Shown: positions 10,869 through 20,887 of the stretch, in pieces
Layout of the letters: each line of letters starts with the position of its first letter
How positions within the stretch are numbered: the stretch's first letter is position 1
IMG/VR virus record: IMGVR_UViG_3300050138_000151
Span: 1 to 20,887 of that record
DNA: 20,887 nt
Reading direction: 5' to 3' (one strand)
DNA from: a virus
Program-made: the position numbers and the translations under genes
The notes under the pieces: generated by a model
Databases searched by the model: none
Seen by the model: the letters and a program-made list of their open reading frames with translations, nothing else
Told to the model about the DNA's origin: nothing

Positions 10869-12736
10869 TCTTTCACTTCGACGGGCAGCGTCCAATTGGT
10901 TTCGCGCCCGACTTTCTCAAAATATCCCCCGAGCTTTCCGCCCTTGATGGCGCCGGTCAATCCGGCCCTGGCGCGCGACAAACTGGTTTTACGATCTTCG
11001 GGGCTCTCATTTTCCAGTTGCGGTACAATATGCGATATAAGGACCGTAGAGGATACCCACACGGGCTTGAACGCCTTAAGCTGAACTAAGGCCCTGGAAA
11101 TATTCTGGGGGCTGTAAATGTCCGCCTCAGCGTTCAGCAGGTTGGCTTCTTGGTCCGTGATAGGCACGAAAGCGAGGCCGGGACCATATGTCCGGCCAGC
11201 ATACCAGAAGGGCTTGGCATATTCTTCGGCGGATTTCTGCTTCGCCACGGTGATCTTGACGCGCTTGGTTTCCTTGTCCGCATGGACCGCCAGGACCGTA
11301 TCAAAATCGTTATAGAAAACGCCCGAACCGCGCCATACTTCCTTATCGTATTTGGGGGTATGATGGACCAGCACGACGCAGCACTTGAACGTCTTTTTGA
11401 GAAACTCTGCCGCTTCGACCATCTTGCTCGCGTCGCGCGCGTCGTTGTCGTTAAGCCCGGACATGGCCCGGTTCAGAGTATCGAGGAATATGATCCCGAT
11501 TGGCCTGCCCGCCGCCTCGGCTTTGATACTGCCCGCGAACTGAACGAAATCTTCCGGCGTGAAAGCCTTCGGCATTTCGTCTGTCACAAGGATCGGCAGC
11601 TTGCGTTCCTCGCCATAGGCCAATTTCCAGGCCGGAATGTCCTTCGACCCCATACGCTCGATCCCTTCGGCGGCGACATAGAAGGCGCATTCGCCAGTCT
11701 GGGCCACTTCGGCGGCGAGGGTCAAAGCCAGCAGCGACTTGTAGTGGCCGGACGGCCCGTACAACATGGCGATACTGTTCCGCATCAGCTTGTCTTTAAT
11801 GAGCCAAACGGGCGCCGGAATATTTTTGAGTTGGTCTTCGTCTTTCCAGTCGAAGCGGCCATGTCCCTCCGGTGCGCTGTCGGCTGTAGGAGCAGCCTCC
11901 AGACTTTCCGCAATCAGCTTGTCGAGGGCTTCAGCGGGAATACGCTCGCGCACCGGGGGAACATACCACGCGCCAATATCGTTCTGGGCATATTGGCTGG
12001 CGTTCAGAATTTTAAGCTTAAGATCGCTTTGATCCCAGGGGGGCTGGCACTGTTCATTCCAGTCCTGCATCGTGTCAAGCGCGACGTCGGGACTGAGGCC
12101 AAGGCTTATGACTTCGGCGGCAACCGCATAGGTCAGGGCGTCTCCACCTTGGCCCGCGATCGCTACGTGCCCGGCGTTGCAGTAGTCGGCAAGGAGCCGC
12201 GTTGCACGGGCACGCGCAAGCTCAGTATCCAGAACCGCCAATACATCTGCGGCGATACGCTCGCGCGTAACGCCTGCCGCATCGCCCACAAAACTCGGGA
12301 GGGGCTGGATCGGTGCGTTGTTGAGGACATAGGGCACTCCATCAATGGTTGAGGGTTCAATTACGATGTAGGACTGGCGCCCGCGGGTGTCGAGTTTGGG
12401 GCCGAGGATGCCAACTGTGGGCTTGACTTCGCCACTGAAGATTAGATGGCGCCCATGCGGAGTTTTCTGTTCGAGGGTAGTTGGCAGCCAATCGTTATTA
12501 GCCTCCAATATTGCCAAACTGTCGTCGCCAGAAGGACCATCAACGTCAATTACCGCAAGGCCGGAGGCCCCTGTTGCTAGTCCCCAGTTGCAGTCAGGAT
12601 ATTCGTCCGCCCACGTCGCAATTTGCGCAGGATTGCTGGACGCTAAATTCGCCCAAGGGAAGTTTGGGAAAGGGATTTTTGTCCCTGGCTGGAGAGGAAT
12701 AACACACCAGTTTGGGGGAAATTTGGGTATTGTCAT
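10865..12736 (-). CDS. Primase-polymerase fused to RepA-like helicase/ATPase
   Basis: A 623-residue replication protein. Residues 1-150 are a bifunctional primase/polymerase (prim-pol) domain. The DxD metal motif is in GLAVIDVDGPSG (Asp64, Asp66), with PHGRHLIF (93-100) as the later conserved histidine region. Residues about 310-500 are a RecA-fold RepA/AAA_25-type ATPase: Walker A GPSGHYKS (327-334), Walker B IIFLDT (415-420) and the sensor stretch VLVHHT (455-460). It would lay primers and unwind at the fork. The ATG at 12736 has GAGGG upstream. Unlike every neighbour it is on the minus strand: convergent with the zinc-ribbon gene and divergent from the metallopeptidase gene. The C-terminal 120 residues carry no motif that I recognise. 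Confidence 0.87.
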   Translation of the reverse strand: MTIPKFPPNWCVIPLQPGTKIPFPNFPWANLASSNPAQIATWADEYPDCNWGLATGASGLAVIDVDGPSGDDSLAILEANNDWLPTTLEQKTPHGRHLIFSGEVKPTVGILGPKLDTRGRQSYIVIEPSTIDGVPYVLNNAPIQPLPSFVGDAAGVTRERIAADVLAVLDTELARARATRLLADYCNAGHVAIAGQGGDALTYAVAAEVISLGLSPDVALDTMQDWNEQCQPPWDQSDLKLKILNASQYAQNDIGAWYVPPVRERIPAEALDKLIAESLEAAPTADSAPEGHGRFDWKDEDQLKNIPAPVWLIKDKLMRNSIAMLYGPSGHYKSLLALTLAAEVAQTGECAFYVAAEGIERMGSKDIPAWKLAYGEERKLPILVTDEMPKAFTPEDFVQFAGSIKAEAAGRPIGIIFLDTLNRAMSGLNDNDARDASKMVEAAEFLKKTFKCCVVLVHHTPKYDKEVWRGSGVFYNDFDTVLAVHADKETKRVKITVAKQKSAEEYAKPFWYAGRTYGPGLAFVPITDQEANLLNAEADIYSPQNISRALVQLKAFKPVWVSSTVLISHIVPQLENESPEDRKTSLSRARAGLTGAIKGGKLGGYFEKVGRETNWTLPVEVKD

Positions 12737-12758
12737 GCGCCCTCGACGATGCTATAAG
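12730..12758 (+). promoter_or_regulatory. Rightward sigma70-like promoter for the replication operon
   Basis: TTGTCA (12730-12735), exactly 17 bases, then TATAAG (12753-12758). The start would be near 12765, about 20 bases before ATG 12785. The -35 overlaps the start codon of the oppositely oriented primase gene, so firing of one promoter could affect the other gene. A TTGACA on the minus strand (12784-12779) may be the primase -35, but its -10 is poor. Confidence 0.6.
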
Positions 12759-12784
12759 CTGGCACAACCCCGAGGATTTGTCAA

Positions 12785-13120
12785 ATGGCGATCACCCTGA
12801 CCCAAGAAATCCTCCAGACTTCTTACACCCTGTTGCGCCAGACGCAACCATTCAATCGTCTCAAATTGCCGCCCGCGAGCCAAGTGAAATTCCAAATTTT
12901 GCGGGGTAAAAGCGTGTCGGGTGACCATTGCCATTGGAACGGGAAGCATCACATTCGCATCAGCGCGGCCAGGCACCATACGTTGTCGGCGGTCATAATG
13001 ACAATGGCTCACGAAATGTGCCACGTTGCAGACACCAGCAAGTCCGCGCACGGTGCCCAGTTTAACCAGCTTGCGGATCGCGTCTGCAAATGGCATGGAT
13101 TTGATCGCGGTCAGTTCTGA
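12785..13120 (+). CDS. SprT-like zinc metallopeptidase
   Basis: A 111-residue protein with MAHEMCHVAD: the HExxH zinc-protease motif (His76, Glu77, His80), preceded by a hydrophobic helix (AVIMTMA). A third likely ligand, His89, is in SAHGAQF. This is the SprT/SprT-like pattern; the cellular relatives (SPRTN) cleave proteins bound or crosslinked to DNA. Here it is the first gene of the replication operon and overlaps the helicase start by one base (TGATG), so a role in clearing protein from phage DNA is plausible but inferred. It is short, a core domain only. GAGGA lies seven bases before ATG 12785. Confidence 0.85.
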   Translation: MAITLTQEILQTSYTLLRQTQPFNRLKLPPASQVKFQILRGKSVSGDHCHWNGKHHIRISAARHHTLSAVIMTMAHEMCHVADTSKSAHGAQFNQLADRVCKWHGFDRGQF

Positions 13121-15642
13121 TGCAGCTAGATTACTTCGCCAACACGGGCGCCTACACGCTGTCGGTCCCGCGTGCCAGTGGCGCTCAGATCAAAGACCTG
13201 ATGTCCGGTCATGGTTTCGATTTTTCCTCGAAGCTATCTAAGACCGACCTTGCGTGCCTGTTCACTCACGAAAGTTATGCGGCTGCGAGCTTCGGCGCCT
13301 TCGCTACGCCGAGGGCAAAAGAGCAGCTTGCCCCGTTCCTTCAACAGATCGAAGCATCCCAGGCCCTCACGAGCGGCGCGCATATCCGCGTGCCGGCAGA
13401 CAAGGTGCTATGGGAATTTCAGAAAGCGAGCGTGGCCTATGCTCTTGATCGAAAATACACGCTCATTGCCGATCAGCCTGGCTTGGGCAAAACACCTATC
13501 GCAATTGCTTACGCAAATGAAATTAGAGCCGGGCGGGTACTATGTATTGTTCCCGCGAATATTCGAGGCCAGTGGGAGCGACGCATCCGAGAGTGGTCAA
13601 CGATGCAATGGCCCTATTCTGTTTATACAGTCTATCATGGACGGAATGGCGTACACCCTACGGCTAACTGGACGGTCATCTCTTATGACCTTGCGCGTAA
13701 CCCGGCTATCCTCGCCGCCCTTGCGCGGGGTCGATACGATCTTCTCATTATAGACGAAGCGCACATGCTGAAGACCGTGGGCACCAAGCGCACGCGCGCG
13801 GTCTTCGGCAGCGTTCTGTTTCCCGAGCTTGTGCATCTGGCGCCGCATTGCGAGCGCATCATGGCCCTGACCGGGACGCCGCTGCCGAACCGCCCGCGCG
13901 AGGCATATGTGCTGGCGCGCAACCTCTGCCTTGGCGCGGACACGCAGGTATTGACTAATACTGGTATCAAGGCTATAGTGGATGTTCAAGCTTCGGATAA
14001 ACTATGGGACGGTGAACGATGGGTGTCACACGCAGGTGTCGTGTCAAAAGGGGAAAAGGAAATAATCGGCGGCGCGCTAAAAGCGACGGCGGACCACAAG
14101 ATACTATTTGGTGGTCGGTGGACTACGTGGCGAAACGTCCTGGAAGACGGCTGCATCCAGTCCCGCGCGTTGGCGACCGGATGGGAGAGCTTACGGTCGT
14201 TGGCTATCATCCAGGAAAAGGCGGAATTTGCCTTGTTGTGTCATGTTCGTGCGGAAAGCCTCCATATAAAATCACAACGGCAAATGCGAGAAGTGGTCGC
14301 AACAAAAAATGCAATGACTGTAGGAACAAGGCCATTCCTGCTCTCACCTCTCGAAGGTATGAGGGAATTAGCATTGATCGAAAGCTTAGAAAATCTCTCC
14401 TGGGCCGTATCGTCAACATCACCATCAGATGCGAACAGCCAAACAGTCCGTCATATGAATACTATGGCGGCCGCGGTATCAGACTTTGGCCTGGATGGGC
14501 TGCGGATCGCCTCGCCTTCCTCAAATACCTCGTGGCACTTCCCGGCTGCGGCCAACCCGGACTTGATCTGGATAGAATTGACAACGACAAAGGCTACGAG
14601 CCTGGGAACCTGCGATGGACCACAAAGTCGGAGAATATGCGAAACCGGAGAAGCGTTGTCTCCCTTACCACCCGCATCCAAGAACTTGAAGCCCGTCTTC
14701 GACATTGTAAATGCGGGGCCTTTGCGTCGCTTCACAGTGATAACTGATGCCGGCCCCCTCGTGGTACATAACTGTTGGGACTGCATAGACTTCGCATCCG
14801 AAGATGATTTCCGCGAGCGTTTCAATCCGGCGATGCGGATGGAAGGCGAACGCTACAATCCCGAGACGAAGAAGATGGAAAGCTATGTCTATACGGACGA
14901 GCGCAGCGGGCGTCACATGGAATTGCAGAACCGTCTGCGCGTGAACTTCATGGCGCGGCACCTGAAGCGCGAAGTGATGCCGCAGTTAAAGATGCCGGTG
15001 TTCGACATCATTCAACTGACCGAGACTTCGGCGGTGAAGCAGGCCCTCGCGGCTGAGCGGCTCTTGGATATCGACCCCGAGACATTGCAAGGCGCCGACC
15101 TGGCGATCAACGGCCAGTGGGCGATCGTGCGTCAGCAAATGGGCATTGCCCTCGCGCCACAGATTGCCGACTACATCGAAATGCTGCTCGACGGCGGTGA
15201 GGACAAGCTGGTTCTGGCCGGCTGGCATCACGCGGTGCTGGATATCTGGTGCGAGCGTCTTGCCAAGTACGGGATCATTCGGATCGATGGTAACACGACG
15301 GCCAAGCAGAAGGAGCGCCTGGTGGTGCAGTTCGGCGGCGATCCTGCCCGCCATATTGCAGCCGACCCTAATATTCGAGTTGCCATTGGCAACATGCAGT
15401 CGATGGGTCAGGGCACCGACGGCCTGCAACACGTTTGTAACCATATTCTAGTGGGCGAGCCCTCACCCGTGCCCGGCGATAACGAGCAAATGGTGGACCG
15501 CCTGGATCGCGGCGGCCAAGACCTGACGGTGCAGGCTGAGTTCTTCGTGGCGCCTAACTCAATCTTGGAGCGCATTCTGGCCTCCTCTTTGCGCAAGTTG
15601 CAGATCACGCACGCCGCGCTTGACAAGAAAGTTCGCCTATGA
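13120..15642 (+). CDS. SNF2-type helicase interrupted by an intein
   Basis: An 840-residue precursor. The extein parts (1-269 and 552-840, together 558 residues) are a superfamily 2 SNF2-like helicase. Motif I is DQPGLGKT (118-125), motif II is DEAH (212-215), motif III is LTGTPLPN (250-257) and motif VI is QMVDRLDRGGQ (790-800). Such phage proteins act on DNA during replication or recombination as ATP-driven translocases. An intein of 282 residues (270-551) sits just after motif III, and splicing would join LARNL to CWDCIDF. ATG 13120 overlaps the metallopeptidase stop. In the middle of the intein the same DNA encodes a second protein in another frame (see the HNH entry). Confidence 0.9.
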   Translation: MQLDYFANTGAYTLSVPRASGAQIKDLMSGHGFDFSSKLSKTDLACLFTHESYAAASFGAFATPRAKEQLAPFLQQIEASQALTSGAHIRVPADKVLWEFQKASVAYALDRKYTLIADQPGLGKTPIAIAYANEIRAGRVLCIVPANIRGQWERRIREWSTMQWPYSVYTVYHGRNGVHPTANWTVISYDLARNPAILAALARGRYDLLIIDEAHMLKTVGTKRTRAVFGSVLFPELVHLAPHCERIMALTGTPLPNRPREAYVLARNLCLGADTQVLTNTGIKAIVDVQASDKLWDGERWVSHAGVVSKGEKEIIGGALKATADHKILFGGRWTTWRNVLEDGCIQSRALATGWESLRSLAIIQEKAEFALLCHVRAESLHIKSQRQMREVVATKNAMTVGTRPFLLSPLEGMRELALIESLENLSWAVSSTSPSDANSQTVRHMNTMAAAVSDFGLDGLRIASPSSNTSWHFPAAANPDLIWIELTTTKATSLGTCDGPQSRRICETGEALSPLPPASKNLKPVFDIVNAGPLRRFTVITDAGPLVVHNCWDCIDFASEDDFRERFNPAMRMEGERYNPETKKMESYVYTDERSGRHMELQNRLRVNFMARHLKREVMPQLKMPVFDIIQLTETSAVKQALAAERLLDIDPETLQGADLAINGQWAIVRQQMGIALAPQIADYIEMLLDGGEDKLVLAGWHHAVLDIWCERLAKYGIIRIDGNTTAKQKERLVVQFGGDPARHIAADPNIRVAIGNMQSMGQGTDGLQHVCNHILVGEPSPVPGDNEQMVDRLDRGGQDLTVQAEFFVAPNSILERILASSLRKLQITHAALDKKVRL
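13927..14772 (+). mobile_element. Class 1 intein in the helicase gene
   Basis: The element encodes residues 270-551 of the precursor. Block A begins with Cys270 (CLGADTQVLTNTG). A typical next strand LWDGERWVSHAGVV follows, and block B is ATADHKIL with the T-x-x-H motif. Blocks F and G are VFDIVNAGPLRRFTV and then LVVHN, with penultimate His550 and terminal Asn551; the +1 extein residue is Cys552. All the splicing residues are present, so it should be active. No endonuclease domain is readable in this frame: about 150 central residues are low-complexity Ser/Thr/Ala-rich sequence that is the shadow of the HNH gene. The centre is AT-rich (53 of 120 bases G or C at 14281-14400) beside GC-rich extein DNA (45 of 60 at 13861-13920), which suggests import. 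Confidence 0.9.
14019..14747 (+). CDS. HNH homing endonuclease encoded in an alternative frame inside the intein
   Basis: A frame of up to 242 residues lies wholly inside the intein DNA, in a different frame from the helicase. It shows the order typical of phage HNH endonucleases. First comes VGDRMGELTVV (51-61), then a zinc-knuckle pair CSC (76-78) and CNDC (98-101). Next are IRCEQPNSPSYEYYGGRGI (136-154), LDLDRIDNDKGYEPGNLRW (182-200) and MRNRR. A helical tail QELEARLRHCKC closes it. The first HNH histidine position is Arg (LDRID), as I recall for many members of this subfamily. It stops 25 bases before the intein ends. The start is uncertain: ATG 14019 has a poor ribosome site, and GTG 14127 has GGTGG five bases upstream. 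It would cut intein-less alleles to spread the intein. Confidence 0.82.
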   Translation: MGVTRRCRVKRGKGNNRRRAKSDGGPQDTIWWSVDYVAKRPGRRLHPVPRVGDRMGELTVVGYHPGKGGICLVVSCSCGKPPYKITTANARSGRNKKCNDCRNKAIPALTSRRYEGISIDRKLRKSLLGRIVNITIRCEQPNSPSYEYYGGRGIRLWPGWAADRLAFLKYLVALPGCGQPGLDLDRIDNDKGYEPGNLRWTTKSENMRNRRSVVSLTTRIQELEARLRHCKCGAFASLHSDN

Positions 15643-15693
15643 CACCATTGCGGAGTTGCTGGTTGGAGGCCAACTTGGAAGGGGTCCGCCCGA

Positions 15694-15804
15694 ATGAGCG
15701 ATCGGCATTTCGACCGCCCTACGTCCAAAAGACCGGAGGGCCGCGCGGCTCACTGGCTGCACACCAAGGCAGACGGCAACATCTTAATTCAACGGAGGAC
15801 ATGA
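15694..15804 (+). CDS. Possible tiny protein (36 aa)
   Basis: A 36-residue frame (MSDRHFDRPTSKRPEGRAAH and sixteen more) in the 163-base gap after the helicase. GGAAGGGG ends nine bases before ATG 15694, a fair ribosome site. An overlapping 56-residue frame from 15639 competes for the same DNA. A perfect 10-base palindrome GCCGCGCGGC (15740-15749) lies within it, so the gap may instead be an untranslated leader. Low confidence. Confidence 0.3.
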   Translation: MSDRHFDRPTSKRPEGRAAHWLHTKADGNILIQRRT

Positions 15805-19026: not shown

Positions 19027-19293
19027 ATGGGCATCATGGAAGCAATCCACACGTTGCGCGGTTGGTTCATCAAGAACCAGCTTAAACTTCCGCGCGTGAC
19101 GCTTACGTTTGACGATCCCAAAGACTTCTATGGGTTTCAATTTATCGTGCGGAACGAAATGAACAAAAACGGGTATCAGTTCATTTCTACGCCATCACAG
19201 GCGGACATGACCCACGGTACAATCATGAATATCCAAGTCGATGTCAAATGTCCGGCCGCACGTTCAGGCGACGTATATCATCGTGGCTTCTGA
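19027..19293 (+). CDS. Hypothetical protein (88 aa)
   Basis: An 88-residue protein, MGIMEAIHTLRGWFIKNQLK at the start, with a predicted helix then strands (RVTLTFDDPKDFYGF). It is a small soluble alpha/beta protein of unknown function, of a kind often placed directly before phage DNA polymerase genes. The GGAGGACAAC site fixes ATG 19027; its stop overlaps the polymerase ATG by one base (TGATG). No catalytic motif seen. Confidence 0.7.
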   Translation: MGIMEAIHTLRGWFIKNQLKLPRVTLTFDDPKDFYGFQFIVRNEMNKNGYQFISTPSQADMTHGTIMNIQVDVKCPAARSGDVYHRGF

Positions 19294-20887
19294 TGAAGTA
19301 TATTGTCCCCGACTTTGAAAGTGTGAGTTGTGTGGACCTGAAGAAAGTCGGGGCATGGCGCTACGCCGAAGATATCACCACGAATATCATCGTACTTCGT
19401 TGGGCCTATAGCAATAGTGAACGTATTGGCACTTGGCATCCCGGCGATCCGTTCCCGTTCGCCGCAGAGATCGGGGCCGGTTATATCTTCAATGCCCACA
19501 ATGCGGCCTTTGAGAAGGCCCTGTGGCGCCTTCACATGATGCCGGTGTATGGTTGGCCCGCCTTGCCAAACCAGTTCTGGGACTGCTCCCTGGCCCGCTG
19601 CGCCAACCTCTGTCTGCCGCAGGGCTTGGATGAAGCGGTACGCGCCTTGCGACTGCCGTCCCAGAAGGATACCGAGGCCAGTAAACTGACGATCGGGTTG
19701 TCCAAGTTCGATCGCAAGGGTTATCTTGCGGAGATTACGCCCGACATTCTCCGCACAGTGGACGAATACTGCGCCGACGACTGCCGCGCCCAGAAGGGCC
19801 TGCGCGAACGGGTCGGCACCTTGAGCCCGGCCGAGCGCCAAGTATGGATGCTAGACCAGCGGATCAATGAACGGGGCTTCAGGATCGACCTGGACCTTGT
19901 TGATAGTATGGCGAAGATCGTGGACGATGCCACGGTGCCGATGCTGGCGGAGTTCACGGCGATCACCGGCATTCCGAAGCTGGGAAGTCCGAAGCTGCTG
20001 GCATGGTGCCGTGAACGCGGTGTTCATCTGCCGAACCTACAGAAAGAAACGATCGCAACAATCTTGAAGGAGGACGATCCCGATGCAGAAGATTATGAAG
20101 AACTTGCAGATGACGAAGTTGGAACCACACGAACGGAGGAATTATCGGAGGATGTCCGCCGCGCTCTTAAAATTAAGCAGCTTGTTGGCAGCGCGAGCGT
20201 CAAGAAATTGGCGCGCGCCAAAATGTGCGTCGGCTCTGATAGCCGAGTACATGGATCACTACAATATCATGGCGCTGGTCCCGGTTTGTGGGCGGGACGT
20301 TTACTGCAACCTCACAATTTTCCAAGGGGCACTCTCACAGCCGTTGAAAAAGAAACGAAAGCCGACTTCCTCACGCGTAAAGTAGAAGCCCTTCAAACAG
20401 GAGACTGGAAATATGTCGAGGCGACAGTTGGGCCGGCAGTCGAGACTGTCGTTTCTTCGCTCCGCCATATCATCGTACCATCACTTGGGCGAGAGTTGGT
20501 GGTTGGCGACTTTGCTGGCATTCAAGCACGTATCGCGCTCGCGGCGGCAGGACAACATGACAAGACGGCGTTGATGGCGGCGGGCTACGATGTCTATATC
20601 GACATGTGTTGTGAAATCTTTAATATGCCGAAGTTCGACACGCGCGATGAAAAATTAGTCGAGGCATTCAAAGCCCAATTTAATGAACTGCGCCAGATCG
20701 GAAAGCACACCGTCCTTGGCTTGGGCTTCCAAATGGGATGGAAGAAGTTCAAGCTGCGTTATTGCAAAGATCGGCCCGACGATTTCGCTGAAGGTGTGGT
20801 ATCCCTATACCGTAATGACTGGGCGCCGCAAGTGCCGAAGCTCTGGTGCGGGCTCGACGCGGCGGCGCGCGACACTGTGTGGGAAAG
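19293..20887 (+). CDS. Family A DNA polymerase with 3'-5' exonuclease (partial)
   Basis: The frame stays open to the window end; 531 codons are visible and the C-terminus is missing. Exonuclease motifs are PDFES (Asp7, Glu9), FNAHNAAFE (67-75) and YCADDC (Tyr159, Asp163). The polymerase part has QPHNFPRG (339-346), then motif A GDFAGIQAR (405-413) with Asp406. The O-helix/motif B region is RQIGKHTVLGLGFQMG (467-482), with Lys471. Motif C is beyond the window. This is the phage replicative polymerase of the T7/PolA class, with proofreading. It closes the visible replication operon. The start overlaps the 88-residue gene, and internal frames in this region are shadows. The segment about residues 258-285 is acidic and likely a flexible insert. 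Confidence 0.93.
   Translation, partial: MKYIVPDFESVSCVDLKKVGAWRYAEDITTNIIVLRWAYSNSERIGTWHPGDPFPFAAEIGAGYIFNAHNAAFEKALWRLHMMPVYGWPALPNQFWDCSLARCANLCLPQGLDEAVRALRLPSQKDTEASKLTIGLSKFDRKGYLAEITPDILRTVDEYCADDCRAQKGLRERVGTLSPAERQVWMLDQRINERGFRIDLDLVDSMAKIVDDATVPMLAEFTAITGIPKLGSPKLLAWCRERGVHLPNLQKETIATILKEDDPDAEDYEELADDEVGTTRTEELSEDVRRALKIKQLVGSASVKKLARAKMCVGSDSRVHGSLQYHGAGPGLWAGRLLQPHNFPRGTLTAVEKETKADFLTRKVEALQTGDWKYVEATVGPAVETVVSSLRHIIVPSLGRELVVGDFAGIQARIALAAAGQHDKTALMAAGYDVYIDMCCEIFNMPKFDTRDEKLVEAFKAQFNELRQIGKHTVLGLGFQMGWKKFKLRYCKDRPDDFAEGVVSLYRNDWAPQVPKLWCGLDAAARDTVWE

Follow-up and report, generated by a model that had tools for sequence, protein, structure and literature searches.

The intein in the viral helicase gene analysed here contains, on the same strand and in a different reading frame, a complete gene for an HNH endonuclease. 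The two are interpreted as a composite mobile element, a minimal cis-splicing intein with a nested out-of-frame HNH gene, to which reading we assign a probability of roughly 85%; splicing, internal initiation, cleavage and homing are inferred steps within it. The window, meaning the whole stretch of DNA that was analysed, is a 20.9-kb virus record of 20,887 nt (IMGVR_UViG_3300050138_000151), and the features on which the argument depends are as follows.

13120-15642, + strand: SNF2-family helicase gene, the host gene; an open reading frame (ORF) for an 840 aa precursor.
13927-14772, + strand: intein of 282 aa, from Cys1 to His-Asn and followed by Cys+1 (14773-14775).
13927-14121, + strand: N-terminal splicing half, residues 1-65, with blocks A and B; substitutions fall at intein codon position 3.
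14011-14021, + strand: putative RBS (GGTGA, 14011-14015) and ATG (14019-14021) of the HNH gene, within the intein codons for W27-D-G-E-R-W32.
14019-14118, + strand: dual-coding stretch, splicing domain and HNH leader (~34 codons), recognised by the depletion of HNH-frame stops from W32.
14019-14747, + strand: HNH endonuclease ORF (242 aa), read at -1 (phase 2) relative to the intein.
14172-14744, + strand: conserved core of the HNH protein, with invariant alignment columns and a dN/dS of 0.13.
14209-14676, + strand: shadow linker, the intein-frame reading of the HNH gene; mostly predicted to be disordered, with zero stops.
14689-14772, + strand: C-terminal splicing half, the last 28 residues, ending VFDIVNAGPLRRFTVITDAGPLVVHN; it overlaps the C-terminal tail of the HNH (to 14744).

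The host ORF matches the Pfam model SNF2-rel_dom (E = 1e-10) and a PHROG DNA helicase profile (2.5e-60). The preliminary description of an uninterrupted helicase frame carrying all class 1 splicing residues proved exact in both coordinates and residues: within the precursor the intein begins at Cys270 and ends at His550-Asn551, with Cys552 as the +1 residue and TADH as block B, so that C1, T54-A-D-H57, H281-N282 and C+1 are all present in intein numbering. Across an alignment of 62 rows (the window and 61 relatives), C1, G13, W27, T54 and H57 are invariant, while H281 and N282 are retained in at least 90%. An AlphaFold model built on a 58-row alignment has two confident parts, residues ~1-95 and 250-282 (pLDDT ~97), and between them residues 112-242 fall below a pLDDT of 50; the values for the N- and C-terminal splicing halves are ~97 and ~96, respectively. 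The 40 best Foldseek matches to this model were almost all solved inteins, headed by those of gp41-1, DnaB, DnaX and NpuDnaE (probability 1.00, E ~2e-3), the remainder of the 40 being Hint-fold relatives (Vint, Bil and Hedgehog domains). A profile of the intein's relatives likewise matched the solved RecA and NEQ068 inteins (E ~2e-4 to 1e-3). The intein is hence predicted by modelling to have a Hint fold and, with its residues, is of class 1 type, protein splicing itself being an inference.

Several other searches were uninformative: the intein alone matched no Pfam model, Pfam and NCBIfam yielded nothing useful for the window's intein and HNH, and scanning viral contigs with the single intein sequence gave zero matches, such that alignments were needed as queries. 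The segment QALATGS (residues ~80-86 of the intein) was considered as a splicing-domain motif and rejected, being the shadow of the HNH motif PSxGDRFG. Separately, the profile phrog_93, labelled 'endonuclease', matches the intein frame and not the HNH frame, which suggests that some phage 'endonuclease' annotations may be splicing domains.

The codons of the HNH gene start at the third position of the intein codons. Its ORF matches the HNH endonuclease profile phrog_374 (E = 6e-31), although no HNH match was returned by Pfam-A, comparison of the HNH profile with the PDB produced only zinc-ribbon noise, and a fold search gave weak matches, Gme HNH and PacI among them. The core contains GDRMGEL, YGGRGI (at 14463), DRIDND (at 14571) and PGNLRW, and the codons of its zinc cysteines lie at 14244, 14250, 14310 and 14319, all four cysteines being invariant. 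AF2 confidently predicts the HNH frame to fold as a separate protein (mean pLDDT 88). The ORF and its PHROG match thus substantiate the original claim that 14019-14747 encodes, in another frame of the same DNA, an HNH with its zinc knuckles and motifs in sequence, and that splicing domain and endonuclease are separate overlapping genes, the HNH being the conserved protein in the middle. A bifunctional (maxi) intein, in which the endonuclease is fused in frame, is not what is found, as the HNH lies in the -1 frame. The position usually held by the first catalytic histidine of the HNH motif is occupied by arginine (DRID) throughout the clade, and catalysis therefore cannot be assumed.

The preliminary description had proposed searching phage inteins for HNH domains in alternative frames, and these proved to be recurrent. 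When IMG/VR and GTDB contigs were searched with alignments and the matches parsed with HMMs, 168 unique inteins were obtained, 159 of which have an HNH out of frame on the same strand: 134, including the window, share the window's phase and 25 have the other one. None of these 159 has the HNH in frame, which may reflect a small number of acquisitions rather than selection. The remaining inteins lack an HNH and comprise seven contiguous mini-inteins and two split inteins. The query of one contig search was limited to intein residues 1-69, and its matches were consequently not selected for the presence of an HNH; the profile used to parse the N domain took in part of the shadow sequence and so mildly favours inteins that have an HNH. 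The best 80 HNH matches in viral contigs are all inside such inteins, and the 17 HNHs found outside inteins are weaker matches from cellular genomes.

Among phage records, tblastn located the intein in 174, covering 80% or more of its length in 161; DNA polymerase is the annotation of most of the 174, and the HNH frame is found in the same places. The arrangement is consequently no one-off and belongs to a large family that resides mostly in phage DNA polymerase A genes, at several sites, in addition to the helicase site of the window, which is common to L011 and L012. Cultured phages with the arrangement include Guernseyvirinae, Dhillonvirus and phages of Vibrio, Pseudomonas, Streptococcus, Caulobacter and Shewanella, and the other phase occurs in cultured phages or prophages such as Streptococcus Javan113, Caulobacter RW and Shewanella SFCi1. 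The window's own DNA polymerase A gene (19248-20885) has an empty site, IGKHTVLGLGF, at which relatives carry this intein family.

The point at which the HNH frame opens can be located from the distribution of its stops. Between the start of the intein and Trp32, 240 HNH-frame stops are observed against 195 expected, whereas between Trp32 and Trp65 there are only six against 182 expected, with no depletion in a control frame; over this second interval the HNH frame is open in 126 of 131 members, compared with 28 expected. As the depletion begins only at Trp32, the HNH open frame is concluded to start there. Trp65 (~nt 194), where the codon periodicity flips, had been considered as the start and was rejected on this evidence. 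The TGG codon of Trp32 yields ATG or GTG when an A or G stands before it, and ATG, GTG or TTG is present in 125 of 132 sequences. Directly upstream, the codons for W-D-G-[E/V]-E form an SD-like site, which together with the start reads GGTGA-ACG-ATG in the window. The predicted duplex with the anti-SD is -12.3 kcal/mol in the window and averages -9.05 over 131 relatives, all at -4 or lower, against a background of -3.8. Synonymous shuffling of the site still gives -8.33 compared with the observed -9.05 kcal/mol, and the signal is thus largely dictated by the conserved amino acids themselves. It is only in the window's phase that TGG can yield NTG; this may explain why that phase is the commoner one, though this is an inference.

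The initial picture is refined by these results: the HNH ORF extends beyond the linker, its first ~34 codons lying inside the splicing domain and its start and putative RBS in the conserved WDGxEW motif. The leader that results (Trp32-Trp65) is not conserved as a protein, having a dN/dS of 1.32 in the HNH frame against 0.23 in the intein frame, and the synonymous rate of the intein is lowered across the dual-coding stretch (0.247 vs 0.368). With a leader on one product and a shadow linker in the other, each protein carries a passenger read from the other's sequence.

Programmed -1 ribosomal frameshifting would offer another route to the HNH, generating an N-extein/Hint-N/HNH fusion that would in effect be a recoded in-frame bifunctional intein. 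The HNH frame of the main family is indeed -1 relative to the intein and opens near nt 90 of the intein in the same 126 of 131 members, but this opening coincides exactly with a start codon preceded by an SD-like site, and no slippery heptamer was noticed at the boundary when some of the sequences were inspected, unsystematically, by eye. Nor can a -1 shift serve the HNHs in the other phase; L157, L278 and L279 have their own AGGAG and ATG in the linker region. Frameshifting is accordingly improbable, without being ruled out.

The two overlapping genes that the composite reading requires are subject to selection in different parts of the intein. Over 27 non-overlapping pairs of relatives, substitutions at intein codon positions 1, 2 and 3 number 170, 112 and 386 in the N-terminal part and 49, 36 and 186 in the C-terminal part; in the linker they number 382, 1494 and 543, intein position 2 being position 3 of the HNH. 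This periodicity switches sharply near nt 195 of the intein and reverts 85 nt before its end. Nei-Gojobori estimates of dN/dS are 0.13 for the HNH frame and 1.46 for the intein frame in the linker, 0.17 (intein) and 1.81 (HNH) in the N domain (nt 0-90), and 0.11 (intein) and 1.94 (HNH) in the C domain; the N-terminal splicing half as a whole has values of 0.17-0.23 in its own frame. This implies that the middle is conserved as an HNH and the ends as an intein. Counts for the frames of overlapping genes are not independent, and these values represent contrasts rather than absolute measures.

The intein frame, which has no conserved sequence of its own across the HNH, also remains open there to an extent not expected by chance. 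When HNH codons were shuffled synonymously in the 119 HNH regions of the window's phase, 396 intein-frame stops were expected and none is observed; the third frame of the same regions contains 1498 stops against 1534 expected. For the other phase the result is zero against 123 expected (23 sequences). These counts cover contiguous cases, and the sequences are related and hence non-independent; the set is diverse, with a mean HNH identity of ~49%. For the window alone the probability of no intein-frame stop is 0.077, or about 8%, so the case rests on its relatives: stop avoidance beyond chance is indecisive for the single sequence and overwhelming for the family. Both of the tests originally suggested, dN/dS in the two frames and codon shuffling, thus gave positive results, and they uphold the proposals that the splicing frame must be kept free of stops across the HNH and that the shadow frame, with its dN/dS of 1.46 and predicted disorder, is tolerated as a linker. 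The only phase-2 member with intein-frame stops (L277:2501-3412) has an intact HNH and is a broken or split copy.

A further possibility is that the intein alone is maintained and the HNH is a decaying, unexpressed passenger. One HNH contains a nonsense codon while its intein is intact (L156), HNH-less mini-inteins exist, and a near-identical pair from one metagenome differs in the presence of the HNH. The polymerase flanks of this pair, L157 and L280, are identical at 597/600 and 599/600 positions, and in L280 a stretch of exactly 531 nt, or 177 codons, is missing from the HNH between two copies of ACCG, the ends of the HNH remaining on both sides. With its gap in frame and these remnants, L280 reads as an in-frame deletion derivative, and the pair suggests, from sequence comparison alone, that the HNH is dispensable for keeping the intein. 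However, a passenger would not account for the HNH-frame dN/dS of 0.13 in the linker, for ORFs that are near-complete in almost all members, or for the depletion of HNH-frame stops even inside the splicing domain. Random breakage of the HNH with retention of the intein had been named at the outset as an observation that would refute the composite; it is rare, the nonsense codon in L156 being the only one in 121 sequences checked. The other short HNH among the 121, in L072, is explained by a repeat insertion and is still open; at L072:2055-3146 the insertion is ~225 nt long and apparently duplicates the zinc-knuckle part of the HNH. Since it is contradicted by the selection data, general decay is unlikely and retains very little probability, although single copies may still be dead.

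Because inteins with an in-frame HNH are a known kind, as in the dCTP deaminase intein of cyanophage CL131 (PMC6293099), it could also be argued that the HNH is truly in frame and hidden by two sequencing or assembly errors. Against this stand the recurrence of one phase across 134 unique inteins and many cultured phages, alignment gaps between close relatives that nearly all span multiples of three, and codon-position signals that flip sharply at fixed points; such errors, the second potential refutation foreseen in the preliminary description, are excluded by recurrence of the layout in independent genomes and assemblies. A group I intron with an intron-encoded HNH, as might be supposed from the 'type I self-splicing intron' annotation of a homologue in Sodalis phage SO-1 (GQ502199), can be dismissed, there being no Rfam match over 12700-15800, an insert frame that is open in every contiguous case, and purifying selection on the splicing-domain residues as protein.

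Variation between members of the family extends to fractured forms. In L064, L076 and L162 the N-half, the C-half and the HNH each have a frame of their own; these polymerase inteins, with those of L085 and L202, which share this layout, are probable natural split inteins. In L022 and L043 the HNH is replaced by a different homing endonuclease with a GIY-YIG-like start, and the polymerase is broken at a second intein site into N-half, endonuclease and C-half ORFs (L022:14-3998, L043:36-3731), the C-half ORF of L022 starting at the endonuclease stop (ATGA). Both polymerases also carry a contiguous out-of-frame HNH intein downstream of the break. PHROG profiles were used to check the split loci L022 and L076. 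A fractured gene with a split intein is therefore represented by L022, L043 and L076 and not by the window, which has a single 840-aa ORF.

Presence/absence polymorphism is evident at one insertion site. The DNA polymerase A site is filled by the intein in Salmonella phage Ent1 and empty in S119, the two agreeing at 95% of positions across the joined site; 469 records can be matched over 80% or more of this 500-nt empty site. In addition, Rhizobium phage RHph_N65 has a relative of the helicase without the insert. Precise loss of the intein would also fit its presence and absence. Distances between HNHs correlate with those between splicing domains (Mantel rho 0.41, p = 0.002, 111 sequences), as expected of a composite that is inherited or transferred together. 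In the HNH tree the phase-2 sequences form one group (SH-aLRT 99), while phase-1 sequences are scattered over several parts of the tree, one set of them lying with free-standing HNHs. On tree topology, more than one acquisition of an HNH is likely, though not proved, and acquisition through invasion of a mini-intein is inferred.

The proposed mechanism builds on what is directly observed: two frames that are open and maintained, selection specific to each, an HNH frame that opens at a defined position with an SD-like site, and the recurrence, correlated divergence and presence/absence polymorphism of the element. The HNH gene, in the usual position of an endonuclease and in the other reading frame, would supply the presumed homing function. 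Ribosomes reading the helicase would cross the HNH DNA and produce a precursor whose folded splicing halves are linked through ~150 mostly disordered shadow residues, from which the intein would excise. Internal initiation at the SD-like site and the ATG or GTG, within the WDG-[E/V]-E-W codons, would give free HNH protein with a leader of ~34 residues; this protein would then cut alleles lacking the intein, and repair would copy intein and HNH together. We also lean, with less assurance, towards regarding these elements as a widespread class in which splicing and homing are divided between two overlapping genes, LWDGxEWV serves both as splicing sequence and as RBS and start, and contiguous, HNH-deleted and split forms belong to one life cycle.

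Inteins are taught as single bifunctional proteins. The present family suggests that a large class, apparently overlooked, encodes splicing and homing in separate overlapping genes, so that many phage 'mini-inteins without endonuclease' may in fact be armed. It would link the nested out-of-frame HNH, the HNH-deleted mini-intein and the split intein with free-standing endonuclease as one series, which bears on the origin of split inteins. It further provides a natural setting for mutating splicing and homing independently of each other, and a clear natural case of long-term dual coding, mostly missed by the annotations examined, for which cultured phages (Jerseyvirus) are available.

In 2009, Dassa et al. 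reportedly described fractured genes in which a free-standing endonuclease gene separates the two parts of a split intein. The window resembles them in that the endonuclease is a separate gene between splicing halves, but those host genes are interrupted and depend on trans-splicing, whereas the host ORF here is continuous; fractured relatives within the present family are L022, L043, L064, L076, L162 and L202. The bifunctional dCTP deaminase intein of cyanophage CL131 (PMC6293099) shares a Hint splicing domain and an HNH at the endonuclease position, the difference being that its HNH is part of the intein protein. The DNA polymerase inteins of Guernseyvirinae and Dhillonvirus (SETP3, Ent1, EP23) are homologous to that of the window and have the HNH in the same relative frame. 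In the records examined this frame is unannotated (that of Ent1 mentions 'splicing domains' only), with the exception of gp39 of Sodalis phage SO-1 (L007:2360-3118), where the out-of-frame HNH is annotated as a gene and called the product of a type I self-splicing intron.

The arrangement was not mentioned in the intein papers and reviews that were searched for terms relating to frame or HNH. A preprint on actinobacteriophage inteins of 'non-canonical architecture' (bioRxiv 10.1101/2025.01.02.630785), cited for overlapping frames by the paper on the ShiLan domain (PMC11855218), may already cover part of this class, as its title and the context of that citation suggest overlapping frames around phage inteins. 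The closest published case is the ShiLan domain itself, an insertion in a mycobacteriophage DNA methylase with an out-of-frame HNH and an open host frame (Arsenault et al. 2025; PMC11855218). Its distribution is disjunct and was read as the result of homing, leaderless translation was suggested, and its authors found no intein splicing domains and thought that the insert remains in the protein (PMC11855218). Common to both systems are an out-of-frame HNH in a phage gene, a host frame that is free of stops across the insert, a disjunct distribution and an interpretation as homing. By contrast with ShiLan, the HNH of the window lies inside an intein whose splicing residues are intact and whose splicing domains are under purifying selection; this HNH starts within the splicing domain, and it belongs to a far larger family.
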